25,221 nt of DNA from a virus: positions 1 through 25,221 of the IMG/VR virus record IMGVR_UViG_3300020478_000059; one strand, written 5' to 3'. Under the pieces are notes generated by a model that was not told the origin of the DNA, did no database searches, and saw nothing but the letters and a program-made list of their open reading frames with translations. Every line of letters begins with the position of its first letter. Within the stretch, counting starts at the first letter, position 1. This document shows, in pieces, positions 3,754 to 10,498 of this stretch. The translations under genes were made by a program, and so were the position numbers.

Positions 3754-4503
3754 ATGGCTTTTACAACCCCAAACTCGTTTACCGAGTTTATGGATTGGGT
3801 ACGTACAGGAGGTGCGGAACCGTCTAGATCAAATTTATATTCAGTCTTCGTAGGTATGCCACCCATCCTGCGAGATAATGAGGTGTATGAATTTCGTAAG
3901 TGGTTTCAATACGTTAATTTCGCAGCAGATGATGTAACGGTACCTAGTAGAAATGTTACTACATCGACTGTAAAGGATTTTGGTGTACAGCGTACATATG
4001 CTACTGGGCAGTCAGTTTCAAATATTACTATTTCATTCTTAGTGACCAAAGACTTGTTTATGAGGAACGTCTTTGAGCATTGGTTGAATGAGATGGCAGG
4101 AGATCAAGAGAATAGAGTAGGATTCTACGATCATTACACTACAAATTTATTAATTCAGAAATGGGAAGTTGGTAGTAATATAGTTTATAGAGATCATAAA
4201 AACCCTAAGGCAAAGTCAAGACTTAATAGGGTAACAGGAGTATGGCAGTTATTTGGTGCATATCCTACTAATATTAGTACGATGACATTGAATAACGAAG
4301 CAACAAGTCTTATGAAGATGGATGTTGACTTCCAGTATGAGAGATATAGGTTCGATCACGTATTAGAGGCAGTAGGTTGGGCAAATATGCCTGATAAGTA
4401 TATTGATCTGTTTACACAGATAGGTAAGCAAATTGGAATTTTGGATGAGATTGGTATTGAACAAGACGCAAACCAAGGAGAGGTTAACGATTACGGAATT
4501 TAA
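3754..4503 (+). CDS. 54: Baseplate tail tube initiator, gp54-like
   Basis: In T4, gp54 binds gp48 on the hub and starts tail tube polymerisation; it shares the tube-protein fold with gp19. This 249-residue protein has tube-like features: an N-terminal FTEFMDWVRTGG, a strand pair around W-F-Q-Y-V-N-F-A-A-D-D-V, a central V-S-N-I-T-I-S-F-L-V-T-K-D with F-E-H-W-L-N-E, and a Tyr/Phe-rich region ending FQYERYRFD. The start is three bases after the preceding stop, with TAGGTA just upstream. Length and position before gp26/gp51 fit gp54. Another tube-fold baseplate protein is possible. Confidence 0.7.
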   Translation: MAFTTPNSFTEFMDWVRTGGAEPSRSNLYSVFVGMPPILRDNEVYEFRKWFQYVNFAADDVTVPSRNVTTSTVKDFGVQRTYATGQSVSNITISFLVTKDLFMRNVFEHWLNEMAGDQENRVGFYDHYTTNLLIQKWEVGSNIVYRDHKNPKAKSRLNRVTGVWQLFGAYPTNISTMTLNNEATSLMKMDVDFQYERYRFDHVLEAVGWANMPDKYIDLFTQIGKQIGILDEIGIEQDANQGEVNDYGI

Positions 4504-4548: not shown

Positions 4549-5253
4549 ATGGCATTACCAAAGCTTGCAATTCCTGAATATGAATGTGAATTGCCCGTGT
4601 CCAATCTCAAGGTCAAATATCGACCGTTTCTCGTAAAGGAAGAGAAATTACTGTACCTTGCCATGGAATCTCAAAAAGAGAAGGAAATGGTGAATGCAGT
4701 AAAGACTATCATTAAGAACTGTACTGATCTTAAGGTTAATCTCAATAAAATTCCTACATTCGAGATCGAATATCTATTCCTTCGCATTCGTGCTAAGGCA
4801 GTAGGTGAAATCAGTGAATTTACAGTCACCTGTCCTGATGATGAAAAAACTACTGTAGATGTTAAGTTACCTCTAGAGAGTATTGAAATACAACAGGATG
4901 AGAATCATTCCAAAGAAATAAAATTGGATGATAAAGTTGGTATTGTCATGCAGTATCCATCATTGGATTTATTTGTCGATCAGAATTTACGAGAGGATCC
5001 TAATATAGAGGACATGTTTAAACTCGCTGCTCAGTGCATCGAGAAAGTTTATGATGAAGAAGAGGTCTATGACAAATTTACTTTAAAGGAGGCATTAGAC
5101 TTTATTGGTGAATTAAACTCGGAACAGTTCCAGAAGATTCAAGACTTCTTTGATACTATTCCAAAACTAAGGCATGAACTTACGGTGACAAATCCCAAGA
5201 CTAATGTTGAGAGTACTATTCCATTGGAGGGCTTAGCCGCTTTTTTCGGATAG
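4549..5253 (+). CDS. 26: Baseplate hub assembly protein gp26
   Basis: T4 gp26 is needed to assemble the central hub and belongs to the T4 baseplate-protein family. This 234-residue protein has the family features: an N-terminal PKLAIPEYECELPVS, KYRPFLVKEEK near residue 25-35, the middle LF-LRIRAKAVGE with a small C-P-D-D-E loop, and the C-terminal LEGLAAFFG. The last codons contain an in-phase slippery heptamer, T_TTT_TTC, two codons before the stop (see 5226-5253). The gene may therefore make both this product and a longer gp26-gp51 fusion. It sits immediately before gp51 and the tape-measure-like genes, the usual place for tail-assembly chaperones. Confidence 0.87.
   Translation: MALPKLAIPEYECELPVSNLKVKYRPFLVKEEKLLYLAMESQKEKEMVNAVKTIIKNCTDLKVNLNKIPTFEIEYLFLRIRAKAVGEISEFTVTCPDDEKTTVDVKLPLESIEIQQDENHSKEIKLDDKVGIVMQYPSLDLFVDQNLREDPNIEDMFKLAAQCIEKVYDEEEVYDKFTLKEALDFIGELNSEQFQKIQDFFDTIPKLRHELTVTNPKTNVESTIPLEGLAAFFG
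5226..5253 (+). promoter_or_regulatory. Candidate programmed -1 frameshift site joining gp26 to gp51
   Basis: GGAGGG (5226-5231) is followed by the heptamer T_TTT_TTC (5241-5247), read in gp26 phase as GCT TTT TTC GGA TAG. A one-base backward slip would continue with CGG ATA GCA CTC ATG and run into gp51 without a stop, giving 233 + 64 = 297 residues. The Shine-Dalgarno-like sequence ends about 10 bases before the heptamer, near the spacing of the stimulator in E. coli dnaX. A 6-bp stem (CCTTAT 5270-5275, ATAAGG 5284-5289) lies downstream, but at 22 bases it is farther than usual, so its role is doubtful. Slippage itself is inferred. Confidence 0.7.
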
Positions 5254-5258
5254 CACTC

Positions 5259-5441
5259 ATGCATGATTCCCTTATGAACATGTATAAGGTGAATTTCGCG
5301 TTAATGCAACATCATAAGTACAGTCTTACAGAATTGGAAAATATGATGCCTTGGGAACGAGATGTGTATGTGAATTTGCTTCTTGCTCATCTACAAGAAG
5401 AGGAAAGAAGACAAAAGGCTCAAGAACGTAAATCTCTATAA
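5259..5441 (+). CDS. 51: Baseplate hub assembly protein gp51 (short form)
   Basis: This 60-residue protein has the gp51-type core YSLTELENMMPWERDVYVNL and then a short Glu/Arg-rich helix. The pattern also resembles the second, frameshifted part of tail chaperones in other phages. T4 gp51 is considerably larger (from memory), so this is a minimal version or only the C-terminal part of a fusion. The frame is -1 relative to gp26 and is open back through the gp26 stop. Possible starts are ATG at 5259, 5274 and 5280, and none has a visible ribosome binding site. Expression by frameshifting from gp26, or by coupling, is therefore likely. The stop overlaps the next start by one base (TAATG). Confidence 0.7.
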   Translation: MHDSLMNMYKVNFALMQHHKYSLTELENMMPWERDVYVNLLLAHLQEEERRQKAQERKSL

Positions 5442-8005
5442 TGGCGAAGTTAAAAGTCAGAGAATATAAGCCCGTGCAGGCACCTAGTGACCGCACAGGG
5501 TTTTCTACTGGCTTCGTAACTAGCGTCAAGCAGATTAATAACCTTGGTATATCTGTAACTGGTATAGCACGTTCTGCTTCATCTATACACACATTGCATG
5601 AGTTTCAGAATGAATATCTGACAGATAATGCAGATAAAAGAGTTAAGGTTATTAATAAGACTGCGAATGATTCTCAAAGACGATATTTAGAACGTAAGAG
5701 AATAGAGAAAAAACTTCTTGGTAAAAAAGCAGATGAAACTGCTGAGTTAACTGCTGAGAAGACTGAACCAGATGCAGTTGATCAAAAGGCAGTAGAGGAT
5801 AAGGTAGCAAAGGAAAAAGATGGACCTTTAGGAGGTTTCCTCAAATTCTTTAAGGTATTAGGTAATATATTAAGACCTCTAGTAGTTAAACTTGGTGCAT
5901 TCGTTGCATTAGACTGGATTGCTAAGAACCCAGAGAAAGTACAAGCGATAGTTAACTTTGTAACTGGGTGGTTCAAGTTTGGTGCTGCAATAGCAGGGTT
6001 CGGTATTAATAAGATTATGGATGGTCTCTCCATGTTTGGGGATGCCACCGATCCAGATAAGAGTGTAATTGAGAGAGCATTCGCTGGTGTTAAGGGGATT
6101 GGTCAATTATTTGTTGGTTTGGGTGGACTCTGGGCAGCATCCAGAATATTCATGCCATGGAAACTTATAGGTGATTATAAGAAGTTTAGAGCATTATTCG
6201 ATATATTTGATCAGGATAAGCACGAAGAGAATAGACAGAAGAATCAGAAGAGACAAAACAAGAGGACTAGAGAGTCAAGTAAGAAAGCACGTAAGAGATA
6301 CGAGAAGAGATACGGTAAGAAAGCAGCAAAGAATAGGTTTAAGGGTAAGATAAAGGGCAGGAGTCCTTGGAAAAAGTTTAGTAGAAATATTGGTAAGCAA
6401 GTTAAGAAGTTTAAACCTCTTAATAAAGCGAAGAAGTTAACTTCTAAGTTAGGTAAGATGAAAGGTCTTACCAAATTTGCTAAGATCGGTGCTGGTGTTG
6501 GTGCTGTATTTTCTGGTGTTAGTGCATATCAAGACGCAATAGCAGCAGGTAAGACTAATGCACAAGCAGTAGGTCTTGGTGTAGGTAAAGCAGCAGGTGG
6601 TATGGCAGGTGCAGCAATTGCTACTGCTGTATTAGGTCCATTTATTGGTCCATTTGCACCTATACTGGGTAGTATTGTTGGTGAATGGGTAGGTGGATGG
6701 GTTGGAGAGAAATTAGGTCCACTTGTTGAAAAAGGATTTAAGACTTTAACTTCATGGTTGAAGACTGCAAGGGAGTGGGTTAAGAAGACTATTAATAGTA
6801 TAGTTGATAATTTCCTCAACTTTATAAAACCAGGATTAGACTTCTTCTTTATGTTTGTCGATTGGATTAAGAAAGGAATCGACATGATAGCGAAGTTTAA
6901 TGACTTCATTATGAGTGCTGCTATTGATGGTATAGTCAGTCTTATTATGAATATTGTTTCGAAGGCAGAATGGATAAAAGAAAAAGCAGGAGCAGTCACA
7001 GGAGCAGCGAAGAAGACATGGGACTTCATAAGTGGTCCTTTCAGAGCTGAAGGTGGTCCTGTAGATCAGAAGAGAGATTTAAGAGCAAATGCTGCTGCTA
7101 TATCTCAACGAAATAGGGCATTAGAATCCTTATATGGAATAGAAGATTTTGTAAATCAGGCAACTGACTTCCAGACATGGAGTAAGGAAGGTTGGAGTGG
7201 ATATGCTGCTGGTGGTTTATATGAGAAGTATAAGAATGGATATGTTCCTAAGACTGAGTTGTCTCCAGTCCACGGATATCAGGGATGGGGTCAAGCAGGA
7301 AAAGGAATGTTGCATAAGTCTGTAGCAAGACAAGCACAGGCAATGCTTAATGCTGCTAAGAAAGATGGTCATCCTATAGGTATCAATTCCACTTATAGAT
7401 CATATGCTGATCAGGTCAGAGTCAAGAAGGAAGAGGGTTATCTAGCAGCAACACCTGGTACTTCAAATCATGGTTGGGGTCTAGCAATGGATCTTAATTA
7501 TTTTGATGCTGGTTATAGATGGTTATGGGAAAATGCAGATAAGTTTGGATTTAATCCATTATCAGGATGGGGATTAAGTCCTAATACACCAGGTAAATCA
7601 GAAGCATGGCATTGGGAGAATTTAAAAGGACAAGGTAATCCTGGTGCAAAGACTTCAAATGTAACTAGTAGTACACCTCAATCTCAGGTAGTAAAAGCGA
7701 AGTTGAAGGGTGTAGAAGGATATCTTGATAAGAGTACTGGTGAATGGACAAAGGGTGCATGGAAAGATGAAAAACCAATAGAAATCAAACCAACAACCCC
7801 TAAAATTACGCAAGGTGATCTAAATAAGGGAGGTGATGTATCAAAACTTTCACTGGTATCTAAAGGTAGATCATTTGATCGCAAACTTCAAGGTGGCAGT
7901 GCAATCGTAATGCTACAACAATATGTACAACAGGGTAACAAATCTACTCAGGAGATTATTCTCACAGATCCAATAAGATCACCCATGGTCTATTCTAAGT
8001 GCTAA
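5441..8005 (+). CDS. Tape-measure-like hub protein with M15 peptidase domain
   Basis: This 854-residue protein directly follows gp26/gp51, where T4-like phages keep the tape measure/hub gene (T4 gp29). Residues 1-125 are charged and probably coiled. Residues 130-240 are hydrophobic/amphipathic, with the block ALDWIAKNPEKVQAIV that recurs in the next gene. Residues 258-345 are strongly basic, and 345-535 are Gly/Ala-rich and hydrophobic, as in tape measures. Residues about 620-730 form a VanY/M15-type D,L-peptidase: STYRSYADQ, SNHGWGLAMD (H677, D684) and SEAWHWE (E721, H724), so the zinc ligands and catalytic Glu look intact. It probably cleaves the peptidoglycan stem peptide during infection. 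The tail after 740 is unknown. The TAATG start implies coupling with gp51. Confidence 0.75.
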   Translation: MAKLKVREYKPVQAPSDRTGFSTGFVTSVKQINNLGISVTGIARSASSIHTLHEFQNEYLTDNADKRVKVINKTANDSQRRYLERKRIEKKLLGKKADETAELTAEKTEPDAVDQKAVEDKVAKEKDGPLGGFLKFFKVLGNILRPLVVKLGAFVALDWIAKNPEKVQAIVNFVTGWFKFGAAIAGFGINKIMDGLSMFGDATDPDKSVIERAFAGVKGIGQLFVGLGGLWAASRIFMPWKLIGDYKKFRALFDIFDQDKHEENRQKNQKRQNKRTRESSKKARKRYEKRYGKKAAKNRFKGKIKGRSPWKKFSRNIGKQVKKFKPLNKAKKLTSKLGKMKGLTKFAKIGAGVGAVFSGVSAYQDAIAAGKTNAQAVGLGVGKAAGGMAGAAIATAVLGPFIGPFAPILGSIVGEWVGGWVGEKLGPLVEKGFKTLTSWLKTAREWVKKTINSIVDNFLNFIKPGLDFFFMFVDWIKKGIDMIAKFNDFIMSAAIDGIVSLIMNIVSKAEWIKEKAGAVTGAAKKTWDFISGPFRAEGGPVDQKRDLRANAAAISQRNRALESLYGIEDFVNQATDFQTWSKEGWSGYAAGGLYEKYKNGYVPKTELSPVHGYQGWGQAGKGMLHKSVARQAQAMLNAAKKDGHPIGINSTYRSYADQVRVKKEEGYLAATPGTSNHGWGLAMDLNYFDAGYRWLWENADKFGFNPLSGWGLSPNTPGKSEAWHWENLKGQGNPGAKTSNVTSSTPQSQVVKAKLKGVEGYLDKSTGEWTKGAWKDEKPIEIKPTTPKITQGDLNKGGDVSKLSLVSKGRSFDRKLQGGSAIVMLQQYVQQGNKSTQEIILTDPIRSPMVYSKC

Positions 8006-8008
8006 TAA

Positions 8009-10498
8009 ATGGCAAATCAAGCAGTTCCAAAAGCTAAGTTATTTAAGATGGTCTCCTTTAAGGGGGTCGATAAGAATAAACTCGCCAGTACAGATTTTGG
8101 TGGACTTGTTAAAGCTCAGAATTCTGGGTTTCAACAGATGGGTAAAGCACTTAATAGTATTGGTGCATCTGTCAATAGTTTGGCAACGACTGTAGAGAGT
8201 ATGAATCAGTCCTTTAAGGAATCGATTAACTCACAGATTAAGAACCAAGATAGGATTCAGACTGCACAGGATAGAGCAGCAGATAGATTAGCGGATAGAG
8301 AGAAGAGAGAGAATAGAGAAAAGATAAAGGATCAGAATAGAGCAGAAGATGCAGCAGCAGAAGATGCAGCAGAAAAACCGAATCTAGCAGCAAAATTAGG
8401 ATATACTGCTGGATTTGTGACTGGTAAGATTGCCAATGGAATGATGGCATTCCTATCCAGACTTGGTGGTCTATTCTTGAAACTGGTTGGATTTAAAATG
8501 CTTGACTGGATGGCAAAGAATCCAGAAAAGATACAGAAGATAGTCGATACTATAGGACGTATAGGTAAGTTTATATTCAATGCTGCTACATGGTTAGCAG
8601 GGTTTACTCTTGGTGGACTCTCCGATTTCATGGAGAATCCTATATCATTAAAGGGTATACTTGGATTTGGTAAGTTCTTATTAGGTCTTGCTGTTGTCTT
8701 TGCTCCTGGAGCAATGGCAAAACTTGGTCTTGGTTTAATCTTTAAGGGTGGCAAGGCATTATTGAAACCAGCAATGCTTCTATTGAAGAATGTTGGTAAA
8801 TTGATATGGAGTATGGGAAAGGTTGCCGCTAAGGGAATCTTCAAGACTGGTAAGTTCTTGATGAAGAATCCTAAGGCAGCACTTATCGCAGGTGGTGTAG
8901 CACTTGGTGCATGGGGTGTCAGTAAACTCATGAATCGGGAGGAGGGTGAACCCGATGTAGATGAGTCTGATACAATGGAAGGCGAGATGGAGGAATTAGA
9001 CCTATCTGCCTTCGGTCTTACTCCTGGTCAAATGCCTGATGATGACCAATTGGCAGGCATCAATCAACAACGAGAGATGGCAGGACAACCTCTTCTAACA
9101 AAAGAGCAAGTCCAAGCAAGTGCGTTAGACATTAAGGCACAAGTAGAAAAAGATTCAGCGGAGGGAACTAAAAAACTTAAGCAAGGTGGTAAAGGACCAA
9201 TAGCAAAAGCATTCGATTTCATTATGAAACCCATTCTTGGGATGTGGGATCAGATCAAGAATATTTTTGGTAAGGTAACAGGGTTCTTTAGAGAGCAATT
9301 CGAAGGATTTATGGGATTCTTTGGTGAATTATTCACTAAAGTTGGGGGTTTCCTCAAACCATACATAGACAAGTTAAAAGGACTAGGTAAAGCATACCTT
9401 GACATGCTACTTGCACCGTTTTTCAAAATGTTTGATGCGGTGAAGAGAGTGATGGAGGTTTTCAAAGGTAAAGAAGGCGAAGACAAGAAGAACGAGAAGG
9501 AGTTGGAAAACAAGATGTTTGGTGGAAGAGTTATTGCTGCTGCTATGGCAGCGGGTGGATGGATTAATGGACCACAGTCAGGGTACGCAGTCTCAATGGA
9601 CGGTACAGGTATAGATTTTATAGGTCACGGATTAGAGTACGTAGCACGTAAGTCAGCAGGTGGATTTGTAGTCCCATTTGATACTCCTGCGACTAGAAAG
9701 GATCCAGGTTTAACAAGTAGACGTCTAGCAGAAGCAGCAGCAGGAGGGTTTAAACTTCCTGGTTTTGAAGCAGGTGGTGCTTTCGGTTTTGCTAAGGAGA
9801 TGATCAAAGTCCATGAAGGACTGAGACTGAAGAAGTATACTGATAGTGAAGGGCATCTTACTATTGGTTATGGTCATTTGGTAAGAGCAAATGAATCGAT
9901 GCCTGATCAGATCAGTAAGGCAACAGCAGATAAGATATTTGATCAAGACTTTGAGCATCATAAGAATGCTGCTACGAAGATTCCTGGTTTTGATAAGGCA
10001 AGTGCTATGCAGAAGGCAGCACTTATTGACCTTACCTTTAATATGGGACCATCATGGTATAGGGAGTTCCCTAAATTTGTTAAGGCATTCCAAGCAGGTA
10101 ATTTTGATAAAGCAGCGGATGAGTTAGTAGATAGTCAATGGTATAAACAGGTTAAACGTAGAGGACCAACTATTGTAGATCTGATCAGAGGTAAGGGTAA
10201 TAATGCTTCTTATCTTAAAGATCTTAAACCACCTACACAGGCAACTGACAAAGGTGAGAAGATCACACAGTCACAGCGTAGGCAAGATGAACGTGTAGAA
10301 TCCTCTACTAAGAAGGGTGCTGGTATTAGTACTGCTGTTGAGACATTACCACCTATTACTGCGGGTGGTGGTGATGAGGATCCAGGTCCACCATTATTGA
10401 TTGAACAACCTAAGAAGAAACAAGCAGCAGCAGACTACATGATCCCTAGGTTTGGTTTGATGCAGGAAATTACTACACCGTCAGCATTATTGAGTTAA
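8009..10498 (+). CDS. Tape-measure-like hub protein with T4-type lysozyme (GH24) domain
   Basis: This 829-residue protein starts four bases after the previous gene. Its N-terminal part has a charged coil (residues about 75-125, many Arg/Asp/Glu), then hydrophobic tape-measure-like segments (140-310) with MLDWMAKNPEKIQKIV, clearly related to the upstream protein. An acidic stretch follows near 310-345. Residues about 590-735 form a GH24 lysozyme: HEGLRLKKYTDSEGHLTIGYGHL places E603, D612 and T618 at the same spacing as T4 lysozyme E11, D20 and T26. Later conserved parts are also present (ALIDLTFNMG and SQWYKQVKRRG). It probably cuts the glycan strand during DNA entry. In T4 this activity is in gp5, so the domain has a different host protein here. 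The C-terminal 90 residues look flexible. Confidence 0.78.
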   Translation: MANQAVPKAKLFKMVSFKGVDKNKLASTDFGGLVKAQNSGFQQMGKALNSIGASVNSLATTVESMNQSFKESINSQIKNQDRIQTAQDRAADRLADREKRENREKIKDQNRAEDAAAEDAAEKPNLAAKLGYTAGFVTGKIANGMMAFLSRLGGLFLKLVGFKMLDWMAKNPEKIQKIVDTIGRIGKFIFNAATWLAGFTLGGLSDFMENPISLKGILGFGKFLLGLAVVFAPGAMAKLGLGLIFKGGKALLKPAMLLLKNVGKLIWSMGKVAAKGIFKTGKFLMKNPKAALIAGGVALGAWGVSKLMNREEGEPDVDESDTMEGEMEELDLSAFGLTPGQMPDDDQLAGINQQREMAGQPLLTKEQVQASALDIKAQVEKDSAEGTKKLKQGGKGPIAKAFDFIMKPILGMWDQIKNIFGKVTGFFREQFEGFMGFFGELFTKVGGFLKPYIDKLKGLGKAYLDMLLAPFFKMFDAVKRVMEVFKGKEGEDKKNEKELENKMFGGRVIAAAMAAGGWINGPQSGYAVSMDGTGIDFIGHGLEYVARKSAGGFVVPFDTPATRKDPGLTSRRLAEAAAGGFKLPGFEAGGAFGFAKEMIKVHEGLRLKKYTDSEGHLTIGYGHLVRANESMPDQISKATADKIFDQDFEHHKNAATKIPGFDKASAMQKAALIDLTFNMGPSWYREFPKFVKAFQAGNFDKAADELVDSQWYKQVKRRGPTIVDLIRGKGNNASYLKDLKPPTQATDKGEKITQSQRRQDERVESSTKKGAGISTAVETLPPITAGGGDEDPGPPLLIEQPKKKQAAADYMIPRFGLMQEITTPSALLS

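Follow-up and report, generated by a model that had tools for sequence, protein, structure and literature searches.

The question raised by this locus is whether a single gene, gp26, gives rise to two tail proteins. The initial annotation read gp26 and gp51 as the T4-family equivalent of the chaperone pairs that many phages make by -1 slippage. The window, by which we mean the whole stretch of 25,221 nucleotides that was analysed (IMG/VR record IMGVR_UViG_3300020478_000059), comes from a phage whose nearest named relatives are cyanophages, with 62-63% gp26 identity; the nearest IMG/VR contigs are 88-90% identical to its gp26. The features of the locus are collected in Table 1.

Table 1. Features of the gp26/gp51 locus and its neighbours, in window coordinates.
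Feature	Position	Strand	Basis or remark
Tail-tube-like protein (gp54-type tube initiator position)	3754..4503	+	phrog_45 5e-36
gp26, predicted short tail-assembly chaperone (TAC-N, lambda gpG equivalent), 234 aa	4549..5253	+	PF12322 2e-65, phrog_150 2e-73
SD-like stimulator GGAGGG	5226..5231	+	9 bases 5' of heptamer
Slippery heptamer T_TTT_TTC	5241..5247	+	in phase, codons GC[T TTT TTC]
-1 frame tail, C-terminal part of predicted long chaperone gp26-gp51	5247..5441	+	phrog_634 2e-30
gp26 stop TAG	5251..5253	+	bypassed by shifted ribosomes (proposed)
Probable 3' stimulatory stem-loop	5265..5295	+	arms 5265-5276 / 5283-5295, one bulge; core 5268-5276 with 5283-5291
Tape-measure-like protein, C-terminal VanY/M15 peptidase domain, presumed client	5441..8005	+	phrog_16823, phrog_167, phrog_794; PF02557 2e-11

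The putative slip site and its conservation

It can be seen in the window that the heptamer TTTTTTC near the end of gp26 is followed by GGA TAG and that the gp51 frame is open through the gp26 stop. The arrangement first read from the letters, GGAGGG-n9-T_TTT_TTC-GGA-TAG with the heptamer in phase and gp51 in the -1 frame, is confirmed by coordinates, and the recomputed lengths of gp26 (234 residues) and of the fusion predicted from a -1 slip (297 residues) agree with those given before. The -1 ORF overlaps gp26 and stays open for 40 bases 5' of the gp26 stop; from 5247 it reads RIALMHDS..., and it ends at a TAA at 5439-5441. The locus thus has a slippery sequence of the form X_XXY_YYZ in the zero frame together with an overlapping -1 ORF, and U_UU.U_UU.C belongs to the efficient class of heptamers in E. 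coli (PMC4066793).

Both genes match the profiles of the T4 gp26/gp51 family (PF12322, phrog_150 and phrog_634), with one PF12322 match in the 25-kb record. In a profile search the -1 frame tail also matched positions 228-277 of the 282 in phrog_150, at its C-terminal end, which suggests that this family contains fused members. Mosig and Vibrio CZ01 carry homologues of the tail-tube-like protein under the annotation baseplate tail tube initiator, and in relatives the tube initiator gene is likewise followed by gp26, gp51 and the tape-measure gene, in that order. The following gene encodes an 854-residue protein from the ATG at 5441, and its profile matches bear out the earlier description of it as tape-measure-like. 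This ATG overlaps the gp51 stop (TAATG, 5439-5443), which suggests translational coupling of gp51 to the client tape-measure gene. We also observed that 5441-10498 encodes two tape-measure-like or coiled proteins in tandem, each with a cell-wall hydrolase domain, a VanY/M15 peptidase in the first and a phage lysozyme in the second.

The initial annotation had proposed, as a check, an alignment of the junction across T4-like phages. We drew gp26 ends from 21 close, 80 broader, 2 vibriophage and 18 Ackermannviridae-type IMG/VR relatives and from 14 named phages; setting the Ackermannviridae group aside leaves 115 gp26 loci, in 78 clusters under 80% DNA identity. T_TTT_TTN was present in phase at all 115 of these loci (last base C in 107, T in 6 and A in 2), and gp51 lay in the -1 frame, open through the gp26 stop, at every locus with a scorable tail, two early-ending contigs being unscored. 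The check was borne out for cyanophages and distant T4-like phages, across which the heptamer and its phase, the placing of gp51 in the -1 frame and the distance of GAGG are conserved, but not for the Ackermannviridae-type loci, where the heptamer was found at 0 of 21.

The first T belongs to an AGT codon at 55 loci, to TCT at 27, GCT at 14, GAT at 14, AAT at 4 and CGT at 1; this codon always ends in T though the residue changes (Ser by AGT or TCT, Ala, Asp, Asn or Arg). The first Phe was encoded by TTT in 78 of 78 clusters, against a TTC usage of 36% for Phe elsewhere in gp26. Codon usage alone would give this conservation with P ~1e-35 (log10 P -35), a value that takes the clusters as independent and is uncorrected for phylogeny, the true figure being weaker. 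The heptamer sites are invariant across several phage families. We conclude from these comparisons that the site is conserved at the synonymous level beyond codon usage and that conservation of the heptamer is far beyond chance, which confirms the observation.

Among relatives the gp26 stop lies 0, 1, 2, 8 or 9 codons 3' of the heptamer, the two largest distances being those in Pelagibacter phage Mosig (8) and Rhizobium phage RHph_I1_18 (9), both with the phase unchanged. Since the position of the stop varies and the phase is constant, it is the phase, and not the stop position, that is the kept feature. The slip region of RHph_I1_18 (locus L030, about 2199-2208) reads T_TTT_TTA_AAC, in which T_TTT_TTA and T_TTA_AAC form two overlapping slippery heptamers in one phase. 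In Aeromonas phage CC2 (L031, 2187-2354) and Agrobacterium phage Atu_ph04 (L032, 2196-2375) the gp51 tails are unannotated and were seen only as the -1 extension.

The peptide read after the slip is conserved from the first -1 codon onward; position 2 (I/V/L) was excluded from this evidence because the TA of the stop forces that residue. There is no ATG, GTG or TTG within the first 15 -1 codons in 10 of the 78 clusters, most of which keep [RL]-x-A-L-x-H-x-x-L-x-x-Y-Y. Among the other 68, an SD-like sequence was found 5-18 bases upstream of the early start in one. The statement that no Shine-Dalgarno (SD) sequence precedes the gp51 ATG therefore holds at 67 of 68 early starts in relatives as well as in the window, where none is seen upstream of the ATG at 5259, the start used in the annotation of gp51 in relatives. 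By the same rule, SD-like sequences precede only 30 of the 78 gp26 starts, and a missing gp51 SD is thus weaker evidence than missing start codons. Most relatives have an ATG 2-6 codons past the slip site, from which some gp51 may be translated on its own in addition to the fusion.

Elements flanking the heptamer

Selection on the upstream element was apparent from codon choice. In the Glu-Gly pair that lies 9-10 bases before the heptamer, GAG was used in 45 of 67 cases against 33% usage elsewhere (P=2e-8), and GGG was used at the Gly codon in 19 of 67 against 6% elsewhere. GAA-GG[TC], which breaks the purine run, was avoided (2 of 67 against 14 of 25 at other Glu-Gly pairs, P=3e-8). When the SD-like rule used in PMC4066793 was applied to the clusters, 60 of 78 conformed to it, compared with 39 ± 4.6 in synonymous shuffles (maximum 53, 300 shuffles), and so the spacing element, too, exceeds codon needs, as the proposed check had asked of it. 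The duplex energy of the region with the 16S tail gave a modest excess only (mean z -0.6), the codon tests being the stronger measure for such an element. We conclude, on the strength of codon choice, that the SD-like element is under selection beyond codon need.

Downstream of the heptamer, the segment 5248-5301 has a minimum free energy (MFE) of -13.4 kcal/mol (z -1.8). Across relatives, the MFE of the first 16 -1 codons had a mean z of -1.96 against synonymous shuffles, compared with -0.63 for the gp26 body and -0.5 and -0.4 for the later tail by the same measure; with stricter clustering (31 junctions) the values were -1.15 and -0.43 (P=0.007). Among the 16 nearest relatives, picked by protein identity, six of the nine core pairs were altered on both sides. 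The stems fall into lineage classes in which stem-loop sequence and spacing vary, with compensatory changes or covariation in three classes, some of the counts coming from sets chosen by pairing; in S-PM2 there is a 14-pair stem (z -6.6). RNAalifold on the nearest relatives gave no consensus hairpin, and we therefore rate the predicted stem-loop as a probable stimulator only.

Chaperone assignment, T4 and rival explanations

The gp26 model (AlphaFold, pLDDT 85) has an N-terminal domain (residues 1-95) for which VIA-align gave 3fgx (Z 7.7) and 2ob9 (Z 7.6), the HK97 tail assembly chaperone, ahead of the next match at 4.5. A Z under 8 can reflect a common arrangement and is alone no proof; these two matches stand well above the rest and cover the whole domain, and one is a tail assembly chaperone. 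Foldseek alone recovered the HK97 chaperone weakly, at probability 0.30, and PDB sequence searches with gp26 and tail profiles gave nothing convincing. A model of T4-type gp51 matched gp26 models in BFVD and gave no chaperone match in the PDB. The locus also lies just 5' of the tape-measure gene, with a long form that is the short form plus a tail. The modelled N-domain fold and this position support gp26/gp51 as a G/GT-type tail chaperone pair.

The gp51 of cyanophages has been described as about 20% of the T4 length with the first ~200 residues absent (Sullivan et al., 2010; PMC3037559), and the text of that study does not mention frameshifting. T4 gp26 (208 aa) is the gp26 domain alone, and in T4 gp51 (249 aa) a single ORF joins a homologue of gp26 (PF12322, 4e-52) to a phrog_634 tail. 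In profile-profile alignment, T4-type gp51 residues 7-200 align to gp26 13-233 and 207-244 to tail residues 7-45; it is colinear with gp26 plus the -1 tail, joined without a gap at the slip Phe. By residue counting, F200 is the slip Phe and residue 201 the first -1 residue, and 201-244 pair with the tail. T4 gp26 retains the Phe-Phe, coded TTC TTT, which, judged by its sequence, cannot slip as the cyanophage heptamer does. Given the fused T4 gp51 and a tblastn survey of 969 phage records that found one gp26 place per record, the genomes indicate that T4-type phages have a gene for each of the two forms, short and long, and that in frameshifting phages one locus serves for both. T4, which the initial annotation had wanted in the alignment, thus has the pair as gp26 and an in-frame fused gp51. 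The part missing from the short cyanophage gp51 would here be supplied by gp26 through the proposed slip.

We consider it very probable that a programmed -1 frameshift at T_TTT_TTC makes gp26 and gp26-gp51 as short and long tail chaperones, and the colinear T4-type gp51 and the HK97-like N-domain support the initial proposal of a T4-family pair. Heptamer, phase, frame, conservation, SD-like selection and T4 gp51 colinearity are taken from the sequences, from which we infer the slipping itself, its rate and the chaperone function. A slip at 5241-5247 on one mRNA would yield a major 234-residue gp26 and a minor 297-residue gp26-gp51, two tRNA-Phe re-pairing from TTT/TTC to TTT/TTT. GGAGGG, by pairing with the 16S rRNA tail, would raise the slip rate, as would, probably, the downstream stem-loop. 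The part common to both proteins may coat the tape-measure protein encoded immediately downstream, and the long form may recruit tail-tube subunits through its gp51 tail. A literature search found no cyanophage ribosome-profiling study bearing on a gp26/gp51 slip.

A potential explanation that would not need to invoke frameshifting is that termination-reinitiation yields a short gp51 on its own, the heptamer being incidental Phe-Phe coding. The short stop-start distance (the ATG lies 5 bases past the gp26 stop in the window, and no more than 2-6 codons from the slip in most relatives) and the TAATG of Limestonevirus are in keeping with this. However, 10 of the 78 clusters have no start codon within the first 15 -1 codons, the peptide is conserved 5' of any ATG, even in Mosig where the gp26 stop is displaced and RIAL is retained, and an SD is lacking. 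Neither would incidental coding account for a first Phe that is always TTT after a base that is always T, nor reinitiation for the in-frame fusion in T4, and we regard this explanation as very improbable.

Still less probable, to the point of being scarcely credible, is that the -1 product arises from transcriptional slippage on the T run. Runs of 7-8 T do occur in 5 of the 78 clusters, but the other 73 have exactly six T closed by another base, which is short for RNA polymerase slippage, and slippage by the ribosome is indicated by the phase of the heptamer relative to gp26, by the SD-like element before it and by the signal of structure 3' of it. Ribosomal slippage thus remains the preferred reading. 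It explains the truncated look of cyanophage gp51 noted by Sullivan et al. (2010); many cyanophage records annotate gp51 as stand-alone, and some miss it. T4 gp51 is needed for assembly and absent from the particle, and the hub roles of T4 gp26 and gp51 have long been unclear (PMC3004832); our analysis supports reading them as short and long tail-tape chaperones. It offers a clear case in which frameshift and gene duplication do the same job in related phages.

Ackermannviridae-type phages and known systems

The 21 Ackermannviridae-type loci (Salmonella, Klebsiella, Dickeya and Vibrio phages) have a homologous tail in the -1 frame and no heptamer. In its place stands GA[AG] ATT TTC AT[TC] TAA or TCA CTT TTC AAG TAA, and the junction reads GAGATTTTCATTTAATTTTTG. 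At the overlap some, such as Limestonevirus, read TAATG; most read TAATT and offer no start codon there. The DNA around this junction is highly conserved (L024, L034, L119-L136 and L033). No explained substitute for the heptamer was found at the 21 loci. We conclude that the T_TTT_TTN route is not universal. A tentative reading, which we rate a little below even, is that marine T4-like cyanophages would set the chaperone ratio by a three-part signal in the manner of dnaX and IS911, made up of a Phe heptamer, an SD-like element kept by selection 8-10 bases before it and a 3' stem-loop rebuilt in a different way in each lineage, and that Ackermannviridae would use another, undescribed route.

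A 2016 review held G-T frameshifting to be widely conserved 'except T4' (PMC5009743). Vladimirov, Gautam and Davidson (2022, Virology 566:9-15), as cited in PMC10885494 and PMC12846349, identified T4-like tail chaperone genes and their poly-T slip sites; according to the same two sources, poly-T sequences are the -1 signals in T4-like short chaperone genes, and some T4-like phages dispense with frameshifting and encode the short and the long form in separate genes. The doubt in the initial annotation as to whether such slippage is described for T4-like phages is thereby settled as far as these accounts go: the -1 slip chaperone is already published for them, which makes the present case less surprising, and most phages with long tails are known to use the same device. 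The abstract of the Virology paper is said to report frameshifting as conserved in several T4-like groups. Possibly undescribed so far are the stimulators and the Ackermannviridae exception.

As those accounts present the T4-like pair of Vladimirov et al. (2022), the window shares its short/long logic and poly-T slip sites, and differs in coming from a new, unclassified cyanophage relative. HK97 gp13 (2ob9) and 3fgx have the same fold over the N-terminal ~90 residues with 11-12% identity, and gp26 has a further 140-residue region. With lambda G/GT and P2 E/E+E', to which no sequence homology of gp26/gp51 was detected, the locus has in common a slip into the -1 frame (here a proposed one) where the short gene ends, the tape-measure gene as immediate downstream neighbour, and a chaperone in two lengths. 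The lambda slip heptamer is G GGA AAG; the window has another, together with a dnaX/IS911-like upstream SD-like element. In dnaX, the -1 signal consists of an upstream SD-like element, a slippery heptamer and a downstream stem-loop. The IS911 signal is laid out in the same way (PMC4066793). The cyanophage junction has the first two of these parts and probably the third, but its heptamer encodes Phe instead of Lys and the sequence and spacing of the predicted stem-loop depend on the lineage.
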